From the NCBI RefSeq assembly GCF_029433515.1, contig NZ_JAQTIG010000007.1:1-64000 (forward strand): a stretch of 64,000 bases of DNA, in the 5' to 3' direction. The position numbers were made by a program, and so were the translations under genes. Shown here piece by piece: positions 7,054 through 29,124 of the stretch. The number at the start of each line of letters is the position of its first letter. Positions within the stretch are counted from its first letter, which is position 1. Origin of the DNA: Lactobacillus sp. ESL0679 (GTDB lineage: Bacteria > Bacillota > Bacilli > Lactobacillales > Lactobacillaceae). The notes below the pieces were generated by a model, which saw only the letters and a program-made list of their open reading frames with translations, ran no database searches and was not told where the DNA came from.

Positions 7054-8046
7054 TTATTTATCTTCATAACCATTTGGATGTGATTGGTGCCACTTCCAAG
7101 CACTAGTCATAACTTCTTCGGCACTTTCATGCTTTGGTTGCCAATGCAGGATTGTTCTTGCCTTGGTAGAGTCGGCTACGAGCGAGTCGGGATCGCCGCC
7201 ACGTCTTGGTCCCATAGTATAAGGGATGTCGATGCCAGTTACCTTGCGAGCTGCAGCTAAAATTTCCAAGTTGGAATAACCATGTGCAGTACCTAAGTTG
7301 AAGACATCGGATTTCTTAGTTTTCATTAAATAGTCTAATGCCAATAAGTGTGCGTCAATTAAGTCCTCAATTTGGACATAATCGCGCACGTTGGTGCCAT
7401 CTTTGGTATCATAATCATTGCCAAAAATGGTAAATTTACCGTCACCAGAAAGTGCACTCTTTAGAATATTTGGAATCAGGTGAGTTTCAGGAGCATGATC
7501 TTCGCCAATTGAACCATCACTGGCTGCACCAGCAACATTGAAGTAGCGCAAGGCGATTGACTTAATGCCATCAGCTTTGTCAGCCCAGTGCATAATCTTT
7601 TCCATCATGACCTTAGTGTCACCATAAGGGTTAATCGGATCAAGTGGAGAATCCTCGGTAATCGGAAGTTTCTTAGGGATGCCGTAAGTTGCGGCACTTG
7701 ATGAGAAGACGAGATATTTAACACCGACGTCATTCATTGCTTCAAGCAATGAAATCATACCAGCAACATTGTTGTCGTAATATTTCAATGGCTTTTTAAC
7801 AGATTCAGGCACTAATGAGTAGGCCGCAAAGTGCATTACAGCATCAATTTTTTCATTTCGTAAAATTTGGCTAACTAAAAACTTATTTTCAATATCGCCT
7901 TGATAAAATTTGGCTTGCGGATCGACAGCCTTTTGATGACCGGTGTATAAAGCATCGAGTACAACAACATTATTGCCGTTTTCAATCAACTTTTTAACAG
8001 CAATTGAGCCGATGTAGCCCGCGCCACCAACAACTAAAACGCGCAT
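7054..8046 (-). CDS. galE: UDP-glucose 4-epimerase
   Basis: Interconverts UDP-galactose and UDP-glucose in the Leloir pathway and supplies UDP-galactose for envelope glycans. About 330 residues. The Rossmann NAD motif GGAGYIGS is at the N terminus, the catalytic Ser/Thr region is SSSAATYG, and the YxxxK pair is in NPYGDTKVMME. I start at 8046 (MRVLVVGG). An in-frame ATG twelve bases further out (8058) overlaps the GGAGG ribosome site itself, so it cannot be the main start. galK and galT are not nearby. Confidence 0.95.
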   Translation of the reverse strand: MRVLVVGGAGYIGSIAVKKLIENGNNVVVLDALYTGHQKAVDPQAKFYQGDIENKFLVSQILRNEKIDAVMHFAAYSLVPESVKKPLKYYDNNVAGMISLLEAMNDVGVKYLVFSSSAATYGIPKKLPITEDSPLDPINPYGDTKVMMEKIMHWADKADGIKSIALRYFNVAGAASDGSIGEDHAPETHLIPNILKSALSGDGKFTIFGNDYDTKDGTNVRDYVQIEDLIDAHLLALDYLMKTKKSDVFNLGTAHGYSNLEILAAARKVTGIDIPYTMGPRRGGDPDSLVADSTKARTILHWQPKHESAEEVMTSAWKWHQSHPNGYEDK

Positions 8047-8948: not shown

Positions 8949-8971
8949 ATTAGTTTGATTAGATATTTTTA

Positions 8972-9000
8972 TTGCGTGACGTTTTTTCTTTTGGTATAAT
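8972..9000 (+). promoter_or_regulatory. promoter of tRNA-Thr
   Basis: TTGCGT at 8972-8977, 17 bases, then TATAAT at 8995-9000: a good sigma-A promoter 17 bases before the tRNA. It could also transcribe into the left end of the integrated element if the tRNA terminator leaks. Confidence 0.75.
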
Positions 9001-9016
9001 TTAAACGTTACGAGTT

Positions 9017-9089
9017 GCTGATTTAGCTCAGTCGGTAGAGCGTTTCCCTCGTAAAGAAAAGGTCGCCAGTTCGATTCTGGCAATCAGCA
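9017..9089 (+). tRNA. tRNA-Thr (CGT), integration site
   Basis: Cloverleaf with acceptor arms GCTGATT and AATCAGC and A as discriminator. The D arm is AGCTCAGTCGGTAGAGC and the T arm GCCAG-TTCGATT-CTGGC. Anticodon CGT is at 9050-9052 in the loop CTCGTAA. The anticodon stem TTTCC/AGAAA has one mismatched pair (C-A) next to the loop. The last eleven bases are repeated at 21265, so the gene is the attachment site of the element to its right and stays complete after integration. Confidence 0.95.
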
Positions 9090-9175
9090 TTTTTAATAGT
9101 AATTCAAAGTAATCAACCTTGATTTATTAACGTTTTTCGAAGATAAGTTAAGGCTGATTTTTGTTAATAATAGAT
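9079..9175 (+). repeat. attL: left direct repeat with tRNA terminator
   Basis: About 97 bases nearly identical to 21265-21360. The first 37 bases are identical and are the likely crossover core; single differences follow. Within it ATCAACCTT (9112-9120) and AAGGCTGAT (9150-9158) form a stem followed by TTTTT, probably the terminator of tRNA-Thr. In the right copy the one mismatch in this stem is a G-T pair, so the fold is conserved. Confidence 0.88.
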
Positions 9176-9176
9176 G

Positions 9177-9285
9177 TCGTGCACAAAAAATGCACAAAGG
9201 AAAAATTTGTGTGCACGATAATGTTGTAAGAGGTAGAACAGAAGTTGATATAGCGGGCTTTATGCCCGCTATTTTTTGTGCACAA
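9177..9285 (+). ncRNA. structured small RNA, element copy (copy 1)
   Basis: A 5' hairpin (TCGTGCAC at 9177-9184 with GTGCACGA at 9211-9218) is followed by an unpaired purine-rich linker and a terminator hairpin AGCGGGC/GCCCGCT (9252-9270) with T tract. The 3' TTTTTTGTGCAC (9272-9283) can also pair with the 5' arm, giving an alternative closed fold. The linker GAGGTAGAACAGAAGT (9230-9245) is the exact reverse complement of 19941-19956 in the integrase leader. Transcription is inferred; it may come from tRNA read-through or from a weak TAATAA box just upstream. Confidence 0.6.
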
Positions 9286-9512
9286 AAATGTTTTTGGTAA
9301 ATTTAATAGTTATTTTGAATAGAAAAGTTAAGTGTAATATTACCTATAATTAAAGAGGCTACTGAACCACTTTTCGCAGATAAGAAATAAATTTTATCAT
9401 TAATGAATAGATGGGCCATGTAAAAGCTAAGTCCTAGGGATATTAAAATGAAATTATAGTTAAATGGTGTGCTAAAATTTATTATAGAGAATTACATTTA
9501 TGAGGTACAAAA
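9286..9512 (+). other. AT-rich promoter region of the restriction gene
   Basis: No open reading frame of note. It contains several TATAAT-like boxes, for example CTATAATTAAAG near 9349, before the restriction gene. The gene's GAGG ribosome site sits about ten bases before its ATG. Nothing else recognisable. Confidence 0.4.
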
Positions 9513-11249
9513 ATGGCTACTTTTGATGAATTGGTTAAACAAATAGATAAAAATGTTGAGGGCCAAAGAAATAGAGGTACTGCTTTTGAAAAAATGGCAG
9601 AATCTTATTTAAAGAATGAACCTAGTTATAAAAAAATCTATAAAAATGTCTGGATGTTGAGTGATGTTCCAGCAGAATATCATATTCCCAAAAAAGATAC
9701 AGGTGTAGATCTTGTAGCTGAAGATTATTTTGGAAATTTAACGGCTGTACAAGCTAAGTTCTATCAAGGAAAAGTAGGGAAAGATACAATTAATTCCTTT
9801 GTTGCTGAAACTGGTAAGAGTTACTATGCAAATGGATTATTAATTTCTACTACTGACGATTGGAATAAAAATGCTGAAGCTGCAATAGAAGGCACTACAA
9901 AGCCTATAACGAGAATAGGTCTTTCACAATTGCGCCATGCTCATTTTAATTGGCAAAAATTTTCTTTTAGCCAAGATAATGATCTATCAGATCATAAAGT
10001 TAAAAAGTTAAGAGATTATCAAAAAGAAGCTATTGATAAATCTGTTAAGTATTTTAAAGAACATGATCGCGGCAAGTTAATAATGGCGCCTGGTACTGGT
10101 AAAACTTTTACCAGTTTGAAAATTGCTGAAGCATTAAAAGCCGATCAACATAAGCAACAATTTAATGTTTTATACTTGGTGCCAAGTATTCAGTTATTAT
10201 CACAAACTTTATTTAGTTGGAATGATGATGTATCAGAAAATATAAAAATGACTTCATTTTCTGTTGTTTCTGATCGAAAAGCAACTAAAAGAAAAAGAGC
10301 AGATGATGATGATGATTTAGCAGCTAAAGATATTGGCTTTCCAGCAACTACTAATGTTGATGAATTAATGAGCGAATATAAGCAAATTAAGGAATTGCAT
10401 GTTGGCAATCAAATGACAGTAATCTTTTCAACATATCAGTCAATTGATGTTATTACTAAAGCACAAAAAGCTGGCTATCCTGAATTTGATTTAATTATTG
10501 CTGATGAAGCCCATCGAACCACTGGTGCTAAGGAATTAGGCCAAGATGGAGATTTTACTAAAGTCCATTCAAATATTAATGTAAAGGGAAGATTACGCCT
10601 CTATCAAACGGCTACTCCTAAAATTTATGATGCTAAGGCAAAGAAAAAAGCTGAAGAAAATAGTATTGTTGTTTCTTCAATGGATGATGAAGCTAAGTAT
10701 GGCCAAGAAATATTTAGATTAGGATTTGGCGATGCCGTTTCTCGTGGATATTTAACTGATTACAAAGTTACGGTTTTAGCTGTTAGTGAATCATTTGTTA
10801 ATAAAGATATGCAACACTTGATGGCAGCTGATAATCAATTAAAAGTAGACGATATTGGTAAAATTATTGGTGTCTGGAATGCGATGGTTAAACGTAATGG
10901 TATTACTGGTGAAATTACTGGTGCACCAATGAAGCGAGCAATTGCATTTACTGACACAATCAAGCATTCAAAAGTAATTTCCAATGAATTTGAGACAGTA
11001 GTTAATGAATACTTAAATGAGCAAGCTGAAGATAGTTTTTCAGTTGATGTTAGACACGCTGACGGTTCTTTTAACGCATTACAAAAAGGCGAAGCAGTAG
11101 ATTGGCTTGAAGATGAGTATATTGAAGATAATCACGCTCGTGTTTTGTCTAATGTACGTTTCTTGACTGAAGGAATAGACGTGCCTAATTTAGATGCAAT
11201 TATTTTCTTTAGTCCTAAAAGTCCCAAGTTGATATTGTTCAAGCAGTAG
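9513..11249 (+). CDS. type ISP-like restriction enzyme, N-terminal fragment
   Basis: Nuclease and helicase half of a single-chain restriction-modification enzyme resembling the lactococcal LlaGI/LlaBIII (type ISP) group. Residues 20-90 form an Mrr-like nuclease with Asp66 in DTGVDLVAE and Gln80-Ala-Lys82. Residues 180-560 are an SF2 translocase with Walker A APGTGKT (192-198), DEAH (331-334) and the later FLTEGIDVPNLDAIIFFSPK motif. The frame ends abruptly inside helicase motif VI; the missing continuation (SQVDIVQAVGRIMRR) is read in the next frame. A single lost A in the run at 11217-11220 explains it. With the next entry the length is about 1,580 residues, the family size. Confidence 0.85.
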   Translation: MATFDELVKQIDKNVEGQRNRGTAFEKMAESYLKNEPSYKKIYKNVWMLSDVPAEYHIPKKDTGVDLVAEDYFGNLTAVQAKFYQGKVGKDTINSFVAETGKSYYANGLLISTTDDWNKNAEAAIEGTTKPITRIGLSQLRHAHFNWQKFSFSQDNDLSDHKVKKLRDYQKEAIDKSVKYFKEHDRGKLIMAPGTGKTFTSLKIAEALKADQHKQQFNVLYLVPSIQLLSQTLFSWNDDVSENIKMTSFSVVSDRKATKRKRADDDDDLAAKDIGFPATTNVDELMSEYKQIKELHVGNQMTVIFSTYQSIDVITKAQKAGYPEFDLIIADEAHRTTGAKELGQDGDFTKVHSNINVKGRLRLYQTATPKIYDAKAKKKAEENSIVVSSMDDEAKYGQEIFRLGFGDAVSRGYLTDYKVTVLAVSESFVNKDMQHLMAADNQLKVDDIGKIIGVWNAMVKRNGITGEITGAPMKRAIAFTDTIKHSKVISNEFETVVNEYLNEQAEDSFSVDVRHADGSFNALQKGEAVDWLEDEYIEDNHARVLSNVRFLTEGIDVPNLDAIIFFSPKSPKLILFKQ

Positions 11250-11257
11250 GCCGAATT

Positions 11258-14233
11258 ATGCGGCGCTACGAAGGCAAAGACTATGGTTACATTATTTTGC
11301 CAATTGTCGTTGCTGATGGTGTTGATCCAAGTATTGCCTTAGATAATGACACAAAATATAAAGGTGTATGGCAAGTATTAAATGCTTTAAGGTCAACTGA
11401 TGAAAGATTTGAAGCAGAAGTAAATAACCTAAATCTGAAGAAAAATAAGTCAGGTAAAATTAATTTTATCGGTACAGATACTAGTCCCGATCATCCAGTT
11501 ACGGAAGATGAAGGTAAAAAAGTTGATGAAGCTAAAGGTTCAGAACAACTTGAATTACCTTTAAATTGGAAGGAAATGCGACAAGCCTTTTATGGTAAAG
11601 TTGTTAAACGTGTTGGGGATCGGCGCTATTTAGAAGATTGGTCTAAAGATGTTACTGAGATTGCTAAGCAGTATATTAGACGAATTAATGATCTGATAGA
11701 TAGTAACAGTAGCGTTAAAAAGGCTTTTGCCAAATTTTTAAAGAGTTTACGTTATAACATCAACGATTCAATTAATCGGGATAAAGCTGTTGAAATGCTA
11801 GCACAGCATTTAATTACTGAGCCGGTATTTGAAGCTTTATTTGGTGAATATAGCTTTGTTAAAAATAATGTAGTATCAAAGGCAATTAATTCTGTTATTG
11901 ATGAATTTAAGAAATATGGTTTTGCTAAAGAACAAGAGAGTTTGAAGCCATTTTATGATTCAATTAAATTACGAGCTTCTGGTATTGATAACGTTGCTGG
12001 TAAACAAGAATTAATTAGAACTCTATATGATAAATTCTTCAGAACTGGTTTTAAAGATACAACTGATCAATTGGGCGTTGTCTTCACACCTGTACAAGTA
12101 GTAGATTTTATTATTCATTCAGTAGATTATGCACTAAATAAATATTTTGATAAATCATTAGCTGATAAAAATGTGCATATCTTAGATCCATTCGTGGGTA
12201 CAGGAACATTTATTACACGTACTTTGCAATATCTCAAGGGTCAACTTGATACAGGTAAGATTACTTATGACGATATTTTAAGAAAATACATGCATGAACT
12301 TCATGCTAACGAAATTGTTCTCCTTAGTTATTACATTGCGGCAATTAACATTGAAGCTGTCTTTGAAGAAATTAGTGATTCTAAGCAATATCAGCCATTT
12401 GATGGCATTGTGTTAACAGATACTTTTGAAAGTACGGAACAAAATGATTCGTTTGAAGATGAACTGTTTGGTCAAAATAATGATAGATTAAAAAAAGAAC
12501 AAGCATATCCAATTACAGCTATTATTGCAAATCCACCGTATTCAGTGGGACAGAAAAATCAAAATGATGATAATCAAAATATAAAATATCTAATATTAGA
12601 TAAAGAAATTCAACGTACTTATGTTAAAAATAGTAATTCTGGATATAGTAAGGGGGCTTATGATACATATATCAAAGCTTTTAGATGGGCAAGTGACCGT
12701 ATAGGTGATCGAGGTGTTATTGGTTTTGTCACTAATGGTAGTTATCTTGATAGTAGTAGTACTGACGGGTTTAGAGCATCACTTTATAAAGAATTTAATC
12801 ATTTATATATCTTTAATTTGCGGGGAAATCAAAGAACCTCTGGCGAAACTTCACGTAAAGAAGGAGGAAAAATTTTTGGCTCAGGTAGTCGAGCACCTAT
12901 TGCAATTAGCATTTTAGTTAAGGATGGTTCTGATAAGCATGAAATCTTTTACCATGATATCGGTGACTATCTTTCTCAAAATGAAAAACTTGCGATTATA
13001 TCTAAATTTAATTCTATTAAGAACATTGATTGGCAAAAAATAACTCCAGATGATAATAATGATTGGCTTAATCAGAGAGATCCAAATTATAAAAAATATT
13101 CTTGGATAGCAGATGATAAAGATATTTCTAAAGGTGTATTTTTAAATCATGCATTGGGAGTAGTCACAAATAGGGATGCTTGGGTATCTGGCTTTTCTAT
13201 GGATAAAGTTAAAGAGAATGTTAACAGAATTATTGTAAATTATAATCAAGAGATGAAACGATATCGCGACACTAATGATAAAAATAACTTTGAATTAAAT
13301 AGAAATCCTAAACTAATAAAATGGACAGTAAATCTAGAAAATTCTTTGAGATCAGGAAATAATATTTGTTTTGATAGCAAAGATATGACATTAATAATGT
13401 ATAGACCATTTACTAAAAAATGGATGTATTATAACGACACCTTAGTTGAAAGAGTACGTTTATATTATAAAAACTGGGGAAAGAAGAATTGTGTATTATT
13501 AACGAGTGGTAGAAGTGTAACAAAAGCCTTTTGTAGTTTAATTACTGATTTAATTCCAAGTATGGACTTATTAGAAAAAGCGCAAGGCTTTATGCGTTAT
13601 GATAATTCTGATAAAGGTAATGAATTAGTACCAAGTCATGATAATGTTAATCAAGCTTTTGCTGATAAAATTGGTCTATCACTTGATGATACATTTGCCT
13701 ATGTTTATGGTTTATTGCATTCAAAAGAGTATCGTGAAAAATATGCAAATGATCTTAAGAAAGATTTAGCACGTATTCCGATAGCTGCTAACAAAGAAAA
13801 GTACGTTGAAATTGGTAAAAAGCTAATGGATCTTCATCTTAATTATGAAAGTGTTGCAGCGTATAAAGATATAAAGTCAACTGCAACAGAACAAAGTGAT
13901 TATCAAGTTTCAAAAATGAAGTTTGGTAAGAAAAAAGATGAAAATGGTAAGAATGTAAAAGATCATTCAAAGATTATTTTTAATGATGATATTAAGATTA
14001 GTAATATTCCAGATAAAGCATATGAATATGTGGTAAATGGACGTTCTGCTATTGAATGGATCATGGATCAATATCAAATTAAAACCGATAAGAAGTCAGG
14101 TATAACTGATGATCCTAATGATTACAGTGATGATCCAAAATATATTTATAATTTGTTGTTGAGTATTGTTAATATTTCTGTACAAACAGTTGATTTAGTT
14201 AATGAGCTGCCCAAGTTTGAAGTAGTGGAATAG
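11258..14233 (+). CDS. type ISP-like restriction enzyme, C-terminal fragment (methylase, target recognition)
   Basis: Continuation of the preceding frame: end of helicase motif VI (coding continues in frame from 11222), a coupler region, an N6-adenine methyltransferase with SAM motif DPFVGTGTF (310-318) and catalytic NPPY (425-428), then a C-terminal target recognition region (about 600-980). The ATG at 11258 (MRRYEGKDYG) lies inside motif VI, so it is unlikely to be a true start. Without the N-terminal half, cutting should be lost; whether a free methylase is made is uncertain. A sequencing error in the A run or phase variation would restore one gene. Confidence 0.83.
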   Translation: MRRYEGKDYGYIILPIVVADGVDPSIALDNDTKYKGVWQVLNALRSTDERFEAEVNNLNLKKNKSGKINFIGTDTSPDHPVTEDEGKKVDEAKGSEQLELPLNWKEMRQAFYGKVVKRVGDRRYLEDWSKDVTEIAKQYIRRINDLIDSNSSVKKAFAKFLKSLRYNINDSINRDKAVEMLAQHLITEPVFEALFGEYSFVKNNVVSKAINSVIDEFKKYGFAKEQESLKPFYDSIKLRASGIDNVAGKQELIRTLYDKFFRTGFKDTTDQLGVVFTPVQVVDFIIHSVDYALNKYFDKSLADKNVHILDPFVGTGTFITRTLQYLKGQLDTGKITYDDILRKYMHELHANEIVLLSYYIAAINIEAVFEEISDSKQYQPFDGIVLTDTFESTEQNDSFEDELFGQNNDRLKKEQAYPITAIIANPPYSVGQKNQNDDNQNIKYLILDKEIQRTYVKNSNSGYSKGAYDTYIKAFRWASDRIGDRGVIGFVTNGSYLDSSSTDGFRASLYKEFNHLYIFNLRGNQRTSGETSRKEGGKIFGSGSRAPIAISILVKDGSDKHEIFYHDIGDYLSQNEKLAIISKFNSIKNIDWQKITPDDNNDWLNQRDPNYKKYSWIADDKDISKGVFLNHALGVVTNRDAWVSGFSMDKVKENVNRIIVNYNQEMKRYRDTNDKNNFELNRNPKLIKWTVNLENSLRSGNNICFDSKDMTLIMYRPFTKKWMYYNDTLVERVRLYYKNWGKKNCVLLTSGRSVTKAFCSLITDLIPSMDLLEKAQGFMRYDNSDKGNELVPSHDNVNQAFADKIGLSLDDTFAYVYGLLHSKEYREKYANDLKKDLARIPIAANKEKYVEIGKKLMDLHLNYESVAAYKDIKSTATEQSDYQVSKMKFGKKKDENGKNVKDHSKIIFNDDIKISNIPDKAYEYVVNGRSAIEWIMDQYQIKTDKKSGITDDPNDYSDDPKYIYNLLLSIVNISVQTVDLVNELPKFEVVE

Positions 14234-14237
14234 TAAG

Positions 14238-14654
14238 ATGGATAAAGAAAAAAATCTACCGGTATATTTACAAATGATTGAAAATGTTATTAATAAAATG
14301 TCATCTAACTCATTTTTGATACGAGGATGGGGAATTACAGTTATTAGCGGCTTGATAACGGTTTACTTAACTCATCTTAAAAATAAAAGTGATTGGTATA
14401 TCCTCATATTATGTTTAGTGGTTTGCATATTATTTTGGATAAATGATGCATATTATTTGTATATAGAACGAAAATTTAGAATATTATATAGCAAAGCAAT
14501 AAATAATGAAGTAGATAATTTTGCAATGGATATTAGTAATATAAAAATGAACTTTTCTAGTTGCATGTTCAGCTGTACATATCTTATATCGTATTTACCC
14601 ATTTCGATTTGTATACTTATTGCAATTGTTTTTATGAAACCTTGTCATTTGTGA
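14238..14654 (+). CDS. small membrane protein next to the TIR gene
   Basis: A 138-residue protein not assigned to a named family. It has a short hydrophilic N terminus (about 1-28) including VINKMSSNSFLIRGWGITVI, two close membrane helices (about 30-70), a charged stretch (about 75-105) and one or two helices at the C terminus (about 108-135). It starts four bases after the restriction gene and precedes the TIR gene by 20 bases, so all three are probably one transcript. Small membrane proteins of this build occur beside TIR-type proteins in defence islands; a membrane partner or effector role is inferred. Confidence 0.7.
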   Translation: MDKEKNLPVYLQMIENVINKMSSNSFLIRGWGITVISGLITVYLTHLKNKSDWYILILCLVVCILFWINDAYYLYIERKFRILYSKAINNEVDNFAMDISNIKMNFSSCMFSCTYLISYLPISICILIAIVFMKPCHL

Positions 14655-14674
14655 TAATAAGGAGAAAGAATTAT

Positions 14675-15376
14675 ATGAAGGGCTACAGAATACGAAAAAG
14701 TGTGATTGATGATAGTTTTGTAGGTAATGTTGATATATCTGAAAATACAGTTGATGATGAAATTAATATTTTAAATTATTTTAAATGCAAGGATAAAAAT
14801 GGAATACCAGTGTTAGATGGTGAACAGATGATTGAAGATTGGTTTCCTAGAAAAAAAGGTAAAAAAGTATTTATAAGCCATTCACATGATGATATTAGTG
14901 CAGCTAAAAGGCTAAGCCTTTATTTAAGACAAGAAAAAGGTTGGGATTGCTTCATTGATTCTGAAGTTTGGGGAAGTTGTTATAAGTTAATTAAGAAAAT
15001 AGATGATGCGTATAATCGCCTTAGTAATGAAGAAAATTTGTATACTTACAATGGATGTCAAAAAACCACATCAGATATTTATCTTATGCTAACAACAGCT
15101 ATAAATAAAGTGATTAATACCTGTCCAATATTTATTTTTATAGAATCAGAAAATTCTGTTGAAGATTCTACAACGTATTCACCATGGATAATGGAAGAAC
15201 TTAATACTTATGAATTGTTACGACCAAAAGAAGAATTTGTAAGAAAAAATGTTTTTGTGAATGATAGTGCAGATTCTGTAATTCCAAATGTAGAAGTATC
15301 TTATAAAGTTGATGAAATTTTAAAGCGTATGGTAGAAATAAAAAATATTTCTGATGTTGATAATCTCAGTTTATAA
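14675..15376 (+). CDS. TIR-domain protein
   Basis: A 233-residue protein with an N-terminal region of about 60 residues and a TIR-like fold. The first strand is KKVFISHSHDD (64-73), the next GWDCFIDSE (89-97), and the distal helix carries YSPWIMEELNTYE (168-180), the position where TIR NADases have their catalytic Glu. I use the ATG at 14675 because AAGGAGAAAGAA lies just before it. The longer frame from 14561 would overlap the membrane gene and has no ribosome site. Bacterial TIR proteins of defence systems usually cleave NAD+ or make cyclic ADP-ribose signals; the activity here is inferred. The 60-residue insertion between the second strand and the distal helix (about 98-160) is long. Confidence 0.78.
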   Translation: MKGYRIRKSVIDDSFVGNVDISENTVDDEINILNYFKCKDKNGIPVLDGEQMIEDWFPRKKGKKVFISHSHDDISAAKRLSLYLRQEKGWDCFIDSEVWGSCYKLIKKIDDAYNRLSNEENLYTYNGCQKTTSDIYLMLTTAINKVINTCPIFIFIESENSVEDSTTYSPWIMEELNTYELLRPKEEFVRKNVFVNDSADSVIPNVEVSYKVDEILKRMVEIKNISDVDNLSL

Positions 15377-18718: not shown

Positions 18719-19747
18719 GTGGAAAAAAGAGCACGACAGTTTATGTATGTGCAGTATTTAGAGTATTTGAAAATTGAGCTTTTAGATTTAGATAGTATTT
18801 TATCTAAATCCAGCCTTCAAGAGTGGGCGTATATTCTTCACGATAAGGACGTAGATAAAAATGGTGAGTTGATTCGACCACATGTTCATGTAGTTCTAAA
18901 ATATACACATCCACAAGTTCCATCTCATGTTGCGAGACTTTTTAAAGATAAGTCGCAATATTTAGAAGTGTGGAAAGGTAAAATCAATAACGCTTATAGC
19001 TATTTAATTCATGCGACTAGTGAAGCCAAAAATAAATATCAATACGGTTCTGAATCGGTAATTGCCTCATTTGATTTTGCAAAAAGACTTGAAAAAATAC
19101 AAGCTAGAGTTAAAAAATCTAATGTCGATTCTAGGTTTGTATTGGATATGATAACTCAGTATGGTGATCAGAAAATCTCATATAATGAGCTAGTTTCAGC
19201 TATTGGGTTTACAGAAGTTGCTCGAAATAAGAGAGTGATTGATAATTTATCTGCCCTTATTGCTGATAAAAAGCATGAGGAATGGCTTGTGAAATTTAAA
19301 GATCGAAAAACTGAAGTAATTTGGCTTTGGGGTGCTGCTGGGGTTGGTAAGACTCGTTATGCTAAATGGTTAGTAAAAGGTGAAAAAGCAGTGACTCTTG
19401 GAAGTAGTAGGGACTATTTTCAAGATTATCATGGTGAAAACTATGTAATTTTAAATGATTTGAGGCCTAGCGATTTCAAGTATGCCGATTTACTAAGGTT
19501 GTTGGATCCTTATGAGCACGACAAAAGCGCCCCGCGTCGTTATCATGATGTTAAGTTAAATATTGAAATGCTGGTTATAACTACGCCTTATAGTCCACGT
19601 GATTTTTATAAGCAAGTAAAGCTTGAAGATCCTGAAGTAGATACTTTTGCTCAACTTAACCGCAGAGTTCATGAAATTCATATTACATCAGAGTTTACTA
19701 AAGAAATTTTCGGAGATAGTACAGATGAATTTATTGAATGGCCGTGA
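18719..19747 (+). CDS. rep: HUH-type replication initiator with helicase domain
   Basis: Rolling-circle Rep of the plasmid Rep_2/RepB kind fused to a P-loop NTPase, 342 residues. The HUH motif is RPHVHVVLKY (His55, His57). The catalytic Tyr is Tyr93 or Tyr95 in NNAYSYLIH. The C-terminal half has Walker A GAAGVGKT (205-212) and the Walker B-like strand YVILNDLRP. It is likely to nick the hairpin region just upstream and support replication of the excised circle; strand transfer in mobilisation is possible. The start is GTG behind GAAAGGT. Confidence 0.82.
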   Translation: MEKRARQFMYVQYLEYLKIELLDLDSILSKSSLQEWAYILHDKDVDKNGELIRPHVHVVLKYTHPQVPSHVARLFKDKSQYLEVWKGKINNAYSYLIHATSEAKNKYQYGSESVIASFDFAKRLEKIQARVKKSNVDSRFVLDMITQYGDQKISYNELVSAIGFTEVARNKRVIDNLSALIADKKHEEWLVKFKDRKTEVIWLWGAAGVGKTRYAKWLVKGEKAVTLGSSRDYFQDYHGENYVILNDLRPSDFKYADLLRLLDPYEHDKSAPRRYHDVKLNIEMLVITTPYSPRDFYKQVKLEDPEVDTFAQLNRRVHEIHITSEFTKEIFGDSTDEFIEWP

Positions 19748-19913
19748 AGTGATGGAAAGTCTAAAAATTAGCTCTACTTTACTTTATAAGTTTCGAAAAT
19801 CAGGTATGCCGTATCATCAATTACCTGGTGGTCGTGCTTATTATTTATTAGATGAGGTGGAAGACTGGTTAAGACAAGCAGGTTATCATAAAGAAAAAGT
19901 ATGGAGTAAATAA
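19725..19913 (+). CDS. xis: excisionase-like HTH protein
   Basis: A 62-residue winged-helix protein of the MerR/excisionase-like HTH_17 kind: NGREVMESLKISSTLLYKFRKSG, then GGRAYYLLDEVEDWLRQ. The start ATG at 19725 follows CGGAGATAG by nine bases; it overlaps the end of rep by 23 bases. It precedes the integrase and should direct it toward excision. A second closely similar gene lies at 28431 without an integrase. Confidence 0.82.
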   Translation: MNLLNGREVMESLKISSTLLYKFRKSGMPYHQLPGGRAYYLLDEVEDWLRQAGYHKEKVWSK

Positions 19914-19919
19914 ATTTGT

Positions 19920-19973
19920 TGAGGTAGAATTGTAAGTATCACTTCTGTTCTACCTCATTTTTGTGAGGTAGAA
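19920..19973 (+). promoter_or_regulatory. integrase leader switch hiding the ribosome site
   Basis: TGAGGTAGAA occurs twice (19920-19929 and 19964-19973) around its exact complement TTCTACCTCA (19948-19957). The second copy is the ribosome site of int. Pairing of the middle arm with the second copy (six-base loop) buries it; pairing with the first copy frees it but makes a terminator-like stem before ATTTTTG. The 16 bases at 19941-19956 are also complementary to the small RNA at 9230-9245, which could break both stems. Confidence 0.65.
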
Positions 19974-19976
19974 AAA

Positions 19977-21212
19977 ATGATAAAGAAAGTAACTTCAGGT
20001 AAACATGTCGGAGAATGGCTAGTAAGAATCCAGCCTGTTGATAAGAAAACTGGTAAACGTTTGTCATGGCCAACGCAGTATGTGGCAAATAAGCGAAAAG
20101 CTGTATTAGTTGAAAATCAAATGTGGGCAGATTATGAAACTGGCTTAAATAGAAATTCGGGTAAAAATATTTTTGCTGAAGAATTTCAAAAATATGTGGA
20201 TAAACGTGCGAAAACAATTAGTCCTGTTACCTTAAAGACCTGGCAAGATTCTGCTCGTGCATTTAAAAAATATTTTGGTAAGACTAGAATTAATCAAATT
20301 ACTACTGACTTAGTTTCAGATTATGCACATGATTATGTTGAGAAGCATAATGTTATCGTAAATAACTCTGCAACTATTGCTAAAAGGTTAGTTCACATGC
20401 GGAATTTTTTTAAATCACTTGATGGAAAGATAGTTAAGGAAAATCCGGTTCCAGAAAAAGCGTTAAAATTGTTTTTTAAGCAAAGTGATTTTTCAGTTAA
20501 ACAAGAAAGATATATTTTTACACCAGATGAATTAAATAAAATTAGAAACTTAATTATTTCTGATTTGCAAAAAAACACCTTTGTTCCTAATTGGGTAGGA
20601 CGTTTAGCAATCTTAGTTGAAAGCTATACTGGAATGAGAATTGGTGAGTTACAAGCTCTAAAGTTTAAAAATATTGTTCATAAAAATAATGTTTGGACTT
20701 TTAAAATTAATGATTCTTGGTCTGATTATGTTAAAGGCTTTAATGGATCGTTAAAAGCCCGTCCTAAGGGATGTTCTAGAACGTTAGTACCTGTTCCTGA
20801 GGAATTAATTGAACTTTTACAACTGTTTGAGAAGAAACAAACGCAATATTTGCAAAATCATAATTGTGAAAATACTTTAGGTTTAATTTTTTTGAATTTA
20901 CATGATTATCGGAATGCTACTAATAATTCTCCAATTACACAGCATGGAATTAATGATATGTTGAAACTGATTTGTAAGAGATTAGATATTCAATCTAATA
21001 AGAAAAAACTAAGTGCATATTCTTTTAGACATACAATTTGTACTAATTTGGCAAATACTCCACAAATGTCTTATCCATGGGCTGCAGAAAGAATGGGTCA
21101 TTCATTGGAAATGTTTATGAAAACTTATGTAGGAATTGATCCTGATATGGACAGACAAATGAGTGTGTTATGGTCTGATAACTTTGCACAAAATAATGCA
21201 CAAGCTAAATGA
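19977..21212 (+). CDS. int: tyrosine integrase
   Basis: Site-specific recombinase of 411 residues, full length for phage/ICE integrases. The N-terminal arm-binding region starts VTSGKHVGEWLVRIQ, and a SAM-like core-binding domain spans about 60-160. In the catalytic domain Arg221 is in GMRIGEL, Arg351 in YSFRHTICT, the GHS box follows, and the nucleophile Tyr384 is in KTYVGI. It lies next to attR and acts on the tRNA-Thr site. Its ribosome site is in the hairpin described just upstream, so expression is likely tightly limited. Confidence 0.92.
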   Translation: MIKKVTSGKHVGEWLVRIQPVDKKTGKRLSWPTQYVANKRKAVLVENQMWADYETGLNRNSGKNIFAEEFQKYVDKRAKTISPVTLKTWQDSARAFKKYFGKTRINQITTDLVSDYAHDYVEKHNVIVNNSATIAKRLVHMRNFFKSLDGKIVKENPVPEKALKLFFKQSDFSVKQERYIFTPDELNKIRNLIISDLQKNTFVPNWVGRLAILVESYTGMRIGELQALKFKNIVHKNNVWTFKINDSWSDYVKGFNGSLKARPKGCSRTLVPVPEELIELLQLFEKKQTQYLQNHNCENTLGLIFLNLHDYRNATNNSPITQHGINDMLKLICKRLDIQSNKKKLSAYSFRHTICTNLANTPQMSYPWAAERMGHSLEMFMKTYVGIDPDMDRQMSVLWSDNFAQNNAQAK

Positions 21213-21264: not shown

Positions 21265-21360
21265 GGCAATCAGCATTTTTAATAGTAATTCAAAGTAATC
21301 AGCCTTGATTTATCAACGTTTTTCGAAGATAAGTTAAGGTTGATTTTGTTTAATAATAGA
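21265..21360 (+). repeat. attR: right direct repeat
   Basis: About 96 bases matching 9079-9175, starting with the last eleven bases of tRNA-Thr. The structured RNA homologous to the one at 9177 follows at the same distance, so the duplicated unit is about 200 bases long but increasingly diverged. Since crossover is expected in the identical first 37 bases, what follows here belongs to the chromosome (or to an older element). Confidence 0.87.
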
Positions 21361-21460
21361 TATTTGGCACCAAGAAAATTAGCTTGGTGCCAAAATTGAA
21401 ATAGTAGAGCAGGATATATGTTGAAATGGCGGGCTTTATGCCCGCTTTTTTGGTGCCAGA
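21361..21460 (+). ncRNA. structured small RNA, copy 2
   Basis: Same plan as copy 1 with different sequence. The 5' hairpin is TTTGGCACCAAG/CTTGGTGCCAAA (21363-21394), the linker TAGTAGAGCAGGATATATG, and the terminator hairpin GCGGGC/GCCCGC (21429-21445) with T tract. The 3' arm TTTTTTGGTGCCA again complements the 5' arm. The 5' arm changed from GTGCAC to TTGGCACC and the 3' arm changed with it: compensatory change supporting an RNA fold. Confidence 0.58.
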
Positions 21461-28651: not shown

Positions 28652-28784
28652 TTTAGTTAAGAAATAATAATGATTAGTTACAACATAAATAGTGGAAGAA
28701 TGTGACCATAGTTATGAAGAATTAATGGAATTACCAAATAAATAATTATTATACTTAATAAAGGTATAATTGCACTAAAAATAG

Positions 28785-28870
28785 TGCACAGCTTTAAGCT
28801 ATGTGCCAAAAAATCTTTTGGAGTGAAACGGTTGTTTATATAGCGGGCTTTATGCCCGCTTTTTTGTGTC
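28785..28870 (+). ncRNA. structured small RNA, copy 4
   Basis: GCACA...TGTGC hairpin (28785-28805) is followed by linker GGAGTGAAACGGTTGTT and terminator hairpin AGCGGGC/GCCCGCT (28842-28860) identical to copy 1, then T6. The 3' arm GTGTC complements the 5' arm only weakly. Another small stem, GCACTA/TAGTGC, lies just before (28772-28787). The linker is shared with copy 2b. Confidence 0.55.
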
Positions 28871-28916
28871 AAAATGATATTTTATAAAAGCTATATTCAT
28901 ATAAAAATAATTTTGC

Positions 28917-28959
28917 TATAATTAAGAAACGTAGAAAAGTTAAAAAGGGCGGTGGCTAC
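28917..28959 (+). promoter_or_regulatory. toxin mRNA promoter and 5' pairing arm
   Basis: Extended -10 TTTTGCTATAAT (TATAAT 28917-28922), the same twelve bases as before the second module (29346-29357). The 5' leader AAAGGGCGGTGGCTAC (28944-28959) is complementary to GTAGCCACCGTCCTTT (29188-29203) with one G-U pair, so the mRNA ends can fold together as in known type I toxin mRNAs. Confidence 0.6.
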
Positions 28960-28972
28960 CGTTTGAAAGAAG

Positions 28973-29038
28973 ATGATGCTTATGGCATTTACTGGACTAA
29001 TACTCCAATCTCTTAGTAGAAAGGTCGGTCACTTGTGA
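28973..29038 (+). CDS. short upstream reading frame coupled to the toxin
   Basis: 21 codons (MMLMAFTGLILQSLSRKVGHL) whose TGA overlaps the GTG start of the toxin (GTGA). GAAAGAAG precedes it. The overlap suggests that reading this leader frame opens or feeds the toxin start. The matching place in the second module reads only four codons before a stop. It may be regulatory rather than a functional peptide. Confidence 0.4.
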   Translation: MMLMAFTGLILQSLSRKVGHL

Positions 29039-29124
29039 GTGGTTACGAAGTAGCAACAATCGTGTTGCTATCAGTTACATTTCTCGTTGATTTGTTGACG
29101 TACATCGACAATCGCAAGAAATAA
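29035..29124 (+). CDS. holin-like type I toxin peptide
   Basis: 29 residues: MSGYEVATIVLLSVTFLVDL then LTYIDNRKK. One hydrophobic membrane helix with a short charged tail ending in lysines is the pattern of the Hol_Tox-type toxins (TxpA/BsrG-like) of Firmicutes. Such peptides damage the membrane when their antisense RNA is lost. Start is GTG. An antisense RNA reads into its 3' end. Confidence 0.72.
   Translation: MSGYEVATIVLLSVTFLVDLLTYIDNRKK

Follow-up and report, generated by a model that had tools for sequence, protein, structure and literature searches.

A linker in the right attP arm of an element integrated at tRNA-Thr is complementary to the leader of the element's own integrase gene (int); in many relatives of this element the linker and the leader change together, and the scaffold around the linker and the place of its target are conserved. 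Comparison among relatives strongly supports the view that the linker near attL has evolved to match the int leader specifically, and in this evolutionary sense the complementarity is real. We propose that the linker is part of a small RNA that acts in trans from the attP arm to release int mRNA that is locked in two ways, by a terminator-like hairpin and by a covered ribosome site, and we put the probability of this reading at roughly 0.6. The window, by which we mean the whole stretch of 64,000 nucleotides that was analysed, contains one such element, here called W; L and G followed by a number designate the loci and genomes of its relatives.

Results

The coordinates of W given in this paragraph are all on the plus strand. 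The attachment gene is tRNA-Thr (CGT) at 9016-9090, and 37-bp repeats of the att core form attL (9079-9115) and attR (21265-21301). Between the att core and the RNA lies IR1 (9109-9162; -16.9 kcal/mol), a stem followed by T's that covaries in relatives. The small RNA predicted at 9177-9285 consists of the P1 and P2 stems, with arms at 9179-9218, the linker with its seed (9230-9245), of which all 16 nucleotides are complementary to the int leader, and P3 (9250-9280), a hairpin (9250-9272) with a T-run that resembles an intrinsic terminator. At the other end of the element, a small HTH protein (19725-19913; profile searches began at 19728) is likely the excisionase, Xis, which it resembles weakly (Pfam HTH_17 below the cut-off; PHROG 66, excisionase). 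It is followed by the 5' arm of the leader hairpin (19920-19929), by the seed target (19941-19956), which makes up the loop and 3' arm of this xis-int hairpin and can also pair with the Shine-Dalgarno (SD) sequence, by the SD region of int (GAGGTAG; 19964-19976), and by the tyrosine integrase gene int itself (19977-21212; Phage_integrase, PHROG 1). A Rep protein (Rep_OBD) is also encoded upstream of int.

The element carries further genes. Consecutive reading frames at 9513-14233, the first with Mrr_cat_2 and ResIII domains and the second with ISP_coupler and Type_ISP_C, look like a single Type ISP restriction-modification enzyme split near 11250, and the reading frame at 14561-15376, which adjoins the restriction gene, has a TIR domain just under the Pfam cut-off.

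Two further copies of the RNA, both on the plus strand, lie outside attR. The copy at 21298-21457 (region to 21670), just beyond attR, has other arms and another linker and is probably the relic of another element. The second copy (28718-28872) is degenerate and its linker, compared by eye, contains the seed of L079, which suggests that different elements have used the same tRNA-Thr repeatedly. At 28907-29105 there is an Rfam match to rli28 slightly above the gathering score (49.3 against 45), and by eye a short reading frame for a small hydrophobic peptide seems to be present there.

The earlier note reported a perfect inverted match between the linker and the arm that hides the int ribosome site, and this is confirmed: GAGGTAGAACAGAAGT stands at 9230-9245 on the plus strand and its exact reverse complement at 19941-19956, 10.7 kb away and thus not opposite the linker. 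No further site for GAGGTAGAACAGAAGT with up to three mismatches occurs within the 64-kb window; shuffled windows had a mean of 0.33 such sites, and two or more in 2 of 100 shuffles. Since exact inverted 16-mers arise by chance in 64 kb, as that note had cautioned and as four other distant ones (besides local palindromes) bear out, the 16-mer by itself is not decisive, and the match has to be judged by its two positions and by what is found in relatives.

Relatives of the integrase were present in 10 of 60 relatives at E ≤ 1e-20 and, at E ≤ 1e-70, in 19 of 397 genomes of the family and 22 of 75 of the genus (the genome of W being counted each time), as well as in 12 of 50 and 5 of 26 genomes of two further genera (E ≤ 1e-70). 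None appeared in locus searches of genome_contigs or viral_contigs, nor by tblastn of the integrase against plasmids and phages. When each int leader was scanned for its longest exact complement within the same stretch, this complement was located 140-164 nt past tRNA-Thr, with differing letters, in W, L015, L019, L048, L057 and L080 (17 nt in L080), and L091 had an 11-nt complement at the same place; in the remaining stretches the longest complement was elsewhere, or there was none of 11 nt.

As a control, the RNA region of each element was scored against every int leader. The set comprised 25 elements with tRNA-Thr upstream of int (recognised through its att repeat in L044), of which 20 were kept after removal of five near-duplicates; L097, left out beforehand, scored 15 and has no pairing. 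By an ungapped local score, the element's own leader ranked first in 12 of the 20 (four of them tied: L017, L018, L079 and L085, the last at 36 with a non-cognate leader). The cognate scores summed to 560 against 403 ± 17 for permuted pairs, a sum that none of 200,000 permutations reached. Scores of 30 or more were obtained by 10/20 cognate and 5/380 non-cognate pairs, and exact complements of at least 14 nt by 5/20 and 0/380, respectively (L080, 17 nt; W, 16; L048, 15; L015 and L057, 14). The check proposed in the earlier note, that the RNA linker and the int leader should co-vary among elements at tRNA-Thr, therefore gave a favourable answer. The integrases of W and L079 are 77% identical, but their seeds differ: the two RNAs score 39 and 30 with their own leaders and 18 and 21 when the leaders are swapped.

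Two other measures had been tried before the ungapped score. Whole-segment RNAduplex energy, which placed the own leader first in 8 of 25 elements, separated cognate from non-cognate pairs poorly, and a gapped local score (11 of 25) gave alignments that ran into noise. Since the ungapped score was the third one tried, scoring was varied over six alternative schemes; the own leader then ranked first in 7-13 of the 20 elements, and the cognate sum was reached in 0 of 100,000 permutations under five schemes and in 2 of 100,000 under one. The scoring favours G-U pairs, which are present in the seed duplexes of L017, L046, L079, L081 and L085, and the result holds with G-U scored as a mismatch. Against dinucleotide-shuffled leaders, 11 of 23 elements were significant (p < 0.05) and 12 were not.

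The pairing is uneven across the family. Eight of the 20 elements did not rank their own leader first: L044 (rank 2), L086, which pairs through bulges only and not significantly relative to shuffled leaders, and six in which pairing is absent (L092, L047, L054, L056, L084 and L089). In these six, int has no att copy directly after it in the DNA shown; they are thus arranged differently, and the tRNA-Thr upstream may mark an attL other than the element's own. L017 and L018 rank first, yet their pairing is short (10 bp). By eye, L015, L017 and L080 have a second co-linear complementary block where P3 would be.

The RNA itself was described in the earlier note as two hairpins flanking a linker. 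These hairpins are only part of the structure, as the 5' strand (9179-9191) can pair alternatively with 9206-9218 or with 9271-9283 and IR1 precedes the whole; after IR1, which stands before the RNA, come P1, which closes the RNA, then P2 as a hairpin, the linker, and P3, which resembles a terminator. In an alignment of 50 matches, both sides have changed in 24 of the 35 pairs, and the covariation score is 0.381, compared with no more than 0.068 when the partners are slid; fitting the alignment to the model biases this figure towards structure. Conservation is lowest in the linker (0.50 bits per column, with 1.03-1.37 elsewhere), and IR1 and P1 are separated by a conserved spacer (1.26 bits). 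In the reversed locus L019, where the model match lies at 7663-7845 on the minus strand as stored, inspection by eye of 12060-12330 (int-oriented) indicates an unrelated terminator-like hairpin in place of P3, with the seed intact.

The arms of P1 and P2 have a second likely role. In W they are repeats of TGCACAA in the DNA, and copies of the same word stand in the left arm, within the 3' end of int (21187-21205). Each element has arm words of its own that recur in its other attP arm, within or after the 3' end of int; in the 13 of 20 elements compared, 11 ranked first (five tied), and 0 of 100,000 permutations did as well. The arm word of L057 is not obviously of the TGCACAA type. We infer that these words are arm-type sites for the integrase. 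Because DNA sites in inverted order could also produce covariation, that of P1 and P2 is no proof of RNA structure, and P3, IR1 and the seed are consequently the stronger evidence for an RNA.

A covariance model of the scaffold finds such RNAs without knowledge of the linker's partner. W, itself a member of the model, matches at 9112-9282 with 150.4 bits. Four genomes with a relative of int carry a model-found RNA on another contig, and two of the four give clear matches, one of them independent. The linker of G025 is complementary to the int leader of its own genome at 18/18 positions, the best among 44 leaders (score 41; the runner-up, L081 with 38, has a similar seed), and that of G445, a close kin of L057, at 15/15. 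The pairing in G396 is imperfect (score 24, tied second), and neither of the two RNAs of G029 fits its own int leader.

At E ≤ 0.001, 50 of the 75 genomes of the genus had model matches; at E ≤ 1e-5 with strict filters, matches were present in 28 of 397 genomes of the family (4 of 40 genera) and 12 of 395 of the order (3 of 80 genera). Of the 30 loci listed in the search of the genus, 24 were examined; ARAGORN placed a tRNA-Thr just upstream in 17, and in the other seven the RNA comes after a truncated tRNA end or a core similar to att. Ten stretches with the IR1 pattern bear names, nine of Lactobacillus and one of Limosilactobacillus, and the pattern had no match in viral_contigs. Blastn of the RNA region gave one place in plasmids and none in phages. 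That place, L098:2139-2240 on the 4.5-kb Lactobacillus amylovorus plasmid NC_017471.1, is a copy of the right attP arm (model match of 83 bits), and no integrase is annotated on the plasmid. In 20 stretches fetched around RNAs that lacked a known int (19 of 17.5-20 kb and one of 1.2 kb), tblastn found no full-length integrase of the int family near the RNA, and fragments only in L135 and L143.

By a permissive rule of our own, a terminator-like hairpin lies between xis and int in 15 of the 16 leaders with an assigned pairing (the range being set by hand in L086); the same rule gives a hairpin, in some cases a very weak one, in 36 of all 44 leaders. The pairing overlaps the 3' arm of the hairpin in 15/15, covering half or more of it in 14/15, and reaches no more than 2 nt into the 5' arm in 14/15; in L015 it falls mostly on the hairpin loop. 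It ends before the SD in all 14 elements compared. The terminator scan did not call the leader hairpin of W, the loop of which is larger than the limit of 8 set in the scan. The SD region of W has 10 bp of complementarity to the 3' arm, and, relative to shuffled SD regions, SD/3'-arm complementarity has a mean z of 2.4, with 17 of 24 leaders (out of the 44) above 1.64. As the 3' arm is complementary to the 5' arm, to the SD and to the RNA, any one of the three can hold it.

The claim that seed binding would expose GAGGTAG stood for W, where blocking the seed target raised the mean P(unpaired) of the SD from 0.03 to 0.77 in folding, but not for most of the family: release was clear only in W, L044, L083 and L085, the other 10 of the 14 elements changed little, and in five (L017, L018, L048, L057 and L079) the SD became slightly less open, by 0.02-0.19. 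Blocking the target cost the leader at least 8 kcal/mol of folding energy in 13 of 14 elements; in L015, where the stem stays, the loss was about 4. From these folds, loss of the leader hairpin would be the common effect and release of the SD an addition in some elements. Given that in most paired relatives the arm also forms one side of a terminator-like hairpin, the RNA is no less likely to control transcription than to free the ribosome site. The seed is moderately accessible (0.53 in W and 0.28 in L057), and the predicted complex of W, which lacks P1 in its fold, is more stable than its separate parts by only about 1 kcal/mol.

As the earlier note had said, the RNA follows tRNA-Thr in the integrated form and int in the circle. 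In the circle it is on the same strand as int and starts 150 nt past the int stop codon. That note's further suggestion, that transcription of the RNA would change with integration, is not supported as worded, since IR1 precedes the RNA in both states. The case for a simple switch by read-through from tRNA-Thr is likewise weakened by IR1, which separates the att core from the RNA whether the element is integrated or circular. The P3 hairpin with its T-run is the only plus-strand terminator called in 8950-9520, and the same scan did not call IR1. The promoter scan revealed no sigma-70-like promoter on the plus strand just upstream of the RNA, and nothing convincing upstream of either the RNA or int, with counts like those in shuffles. 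The RNA is presumably transcribed, and its activity may depend on the integration state.

Discussion

Based on these observations, we propose the following model. The right attP arm of the tRNA-Thr element family would encode a structured small RNA, the linker of which would pair in the cell with the 3' arm and loop of the xis-int hairpin in the int leader. Left to itself, the 3' arm would either form the terminator-like hairpin with the 5' arm, which may end transcription, or cover the ribosome site of int, and in either state int would be held off. The RNA would then seed at the loop, displace the 5' arm and undo both locks, so that int is made; binding to the loop first would presumably give the RNA a head start. 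That 3' half of the terminator appears late during transcription, which counts against antitermination. Since each element has its own seed and leader pair, regulation would be specific to the element. We favour activation as the outcome because the RNA would bind the arm that does the locking, and neither the SD nor the start codon.

A bolder form of this proposal, to which we hold only tentatively and give somewhat less than even odds, is that the elements carry, within the attP arm, a natural family of trans-acting RNAs that overlap the integrase arm-type sites and open a double lock on their own integrase, consisting of the terminator and the hidden ribosome site, by toehold strand displacement. 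Each element would then possess a private key and lock, and relics left at tRNA-Thr could not trigger a newcomer.

The same pairing could also serve repression. In that case the duplex of 14-18 bp between RNA and leader would be cleaved by RNase III or would speed up decay of the message, so that integrase levels stay low once the element has integrated. Transposases are classically repressed by antisense RNAs in this way, the present RNA remains with the element once it is integrated, and the permutations, the shuffles and the match on another contig support repression as much as activation. However, given that the target ends short of the SD in all 14 elements compared, that it sits on the arm shared by the anti-SD and the terminator-like stem, and that the linker resembles the SD region that it would free, we consider repression unlikely, even if it is the best of the alternatives to activation.

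A rather weaker case can be made for action in cis. The int transcript of the circle would run across attP into the linker, its 3' end would pair with its own leader in a 5'-3' loop, and integration would sever the two. The position of the RNA, 150 nt after int on the same strand in the circle, and the failure to find a separate promoter both fit such a loop. A transcript taking this route would nevertheless have to cross the conserved IR1 stem and its T's, which stand between int and the linker, and model matches persist at places where the search for an integrase of the int family nearby gave none; we think a trans-acting RNA the better explanation.

Less probable again is that the xis message is the real target and that the RNA alters how stable this message is or how much transcription continues past xis to int, setting the Xis/Int ratio and with it the direction of recombination. 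In W the hairpin, with its T-run, comes directly after the xis stop codon, as this would require. Yet the complementarity between the SD and the 3' arm ties the same arm to int, and elements of the L086 type keep a bulged, non-significant complementarity without a terminator hairpin.

It is improbable that no RNA is involved and that the shared sequence is a binding site for Xis or a repressor in the DNA, present at attP and near int. The P1/P2 arms do match words that each element repeats in its other attP arm (11 of 13 at rank 1, five tied). However, the seed lies outside those words and is always antisense to the leader hairpin, its duplex includes G-U pairs in five elements, and in most a covarying terminator-like hairpin follows it. 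Chance, for which the four other inverted 16-mers of the window might speak, is very improbable in view of the permutation and shuffle controls and the 18-nt match on another contig.

How an element keeps its integrase off while integrated, yet turns it on to excise or once it has been transferred, is a long-standing question that now becomes testable by a simple reporter. If the RNA prevents the terminator, it would be a natural counterpart to the designed transcription-activating RNAs, and the co-evolving seed and leader pairs would be ready, matched natural riboregulators. Furthermore, the overlap of RNA and attP would show recombination sites and a regulator in one stretch of DNA.

Several known systems share parts of this arrangement. 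In phage lambda, sib is an RNase III site at the 3' end of int that acts in cis and retroregulates int. Here, as with sib, a control RNA lies downstream of int across attP, 150 nt past the int stop in the circle, and integration breaks the link; sib, however, acts at the int 3' end in cis, whereas the complementarity of the present linker is to the 5' leader of int, with a seed specific to the element. RNA-OUT of IS10 is made at the site of its target, from the other DNA strand. It is likewise an RNA encoded by an element that pairs with the message of its own recombinase, but the RNA described here is encoded 10.7 kb away instead of on the opposite strand, and is directed at the anti-SD/terminator arm. 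DsrA on rpoS and RNAIII on hla are anti-antisense activators that bind the arm hiding a ribosome site. The present linker is complementary to an arm of this kind, which covers the SD in W and which has SD complementarity with z above 1.64 in 17 of 24 leaders; in contrast to DsrA and RNAIII, this RNA sits inside a recombination site and is element-specific, and the arm also belongs to a terminator-like hairpin.

The earlier note had suggested that the RNA may belong to a computationally predicted motif associated with integrases of lactobacilli. The Rfam search was negative: no family of Rfam 15 reached its gathering cut-off at 9177-9285, where a permissive scan gave sub-threshold matches only, and the loci of 20 relatives yielded tRNA and 5S rRNA only. 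No comparable RNA directed at an integrase leader turned up in a search of openly licensed PMC papers. Table 1 of PMC2864571 (2010) lists a 'Lacto-int' motif, without Rfam accession and marked '?' as an RNA, from Lactobacillales and phages and associated with integrases by its name; IR1 or the RNA described here might correspond to it. By these tools, the RNA family appears undescribed. A further parallel to the proposed mechanism is man-made. According to PMC5648800, the designed STARs are trans-acting RNAs that prevent formation of an intrinsic terminator ahead of a gene, as the RNA proposed here might do; they bind a linear region and the 5' half of the terminator, whereas the RNA of the tRNA-Thr elements is complementary to the loop and the 3' half.
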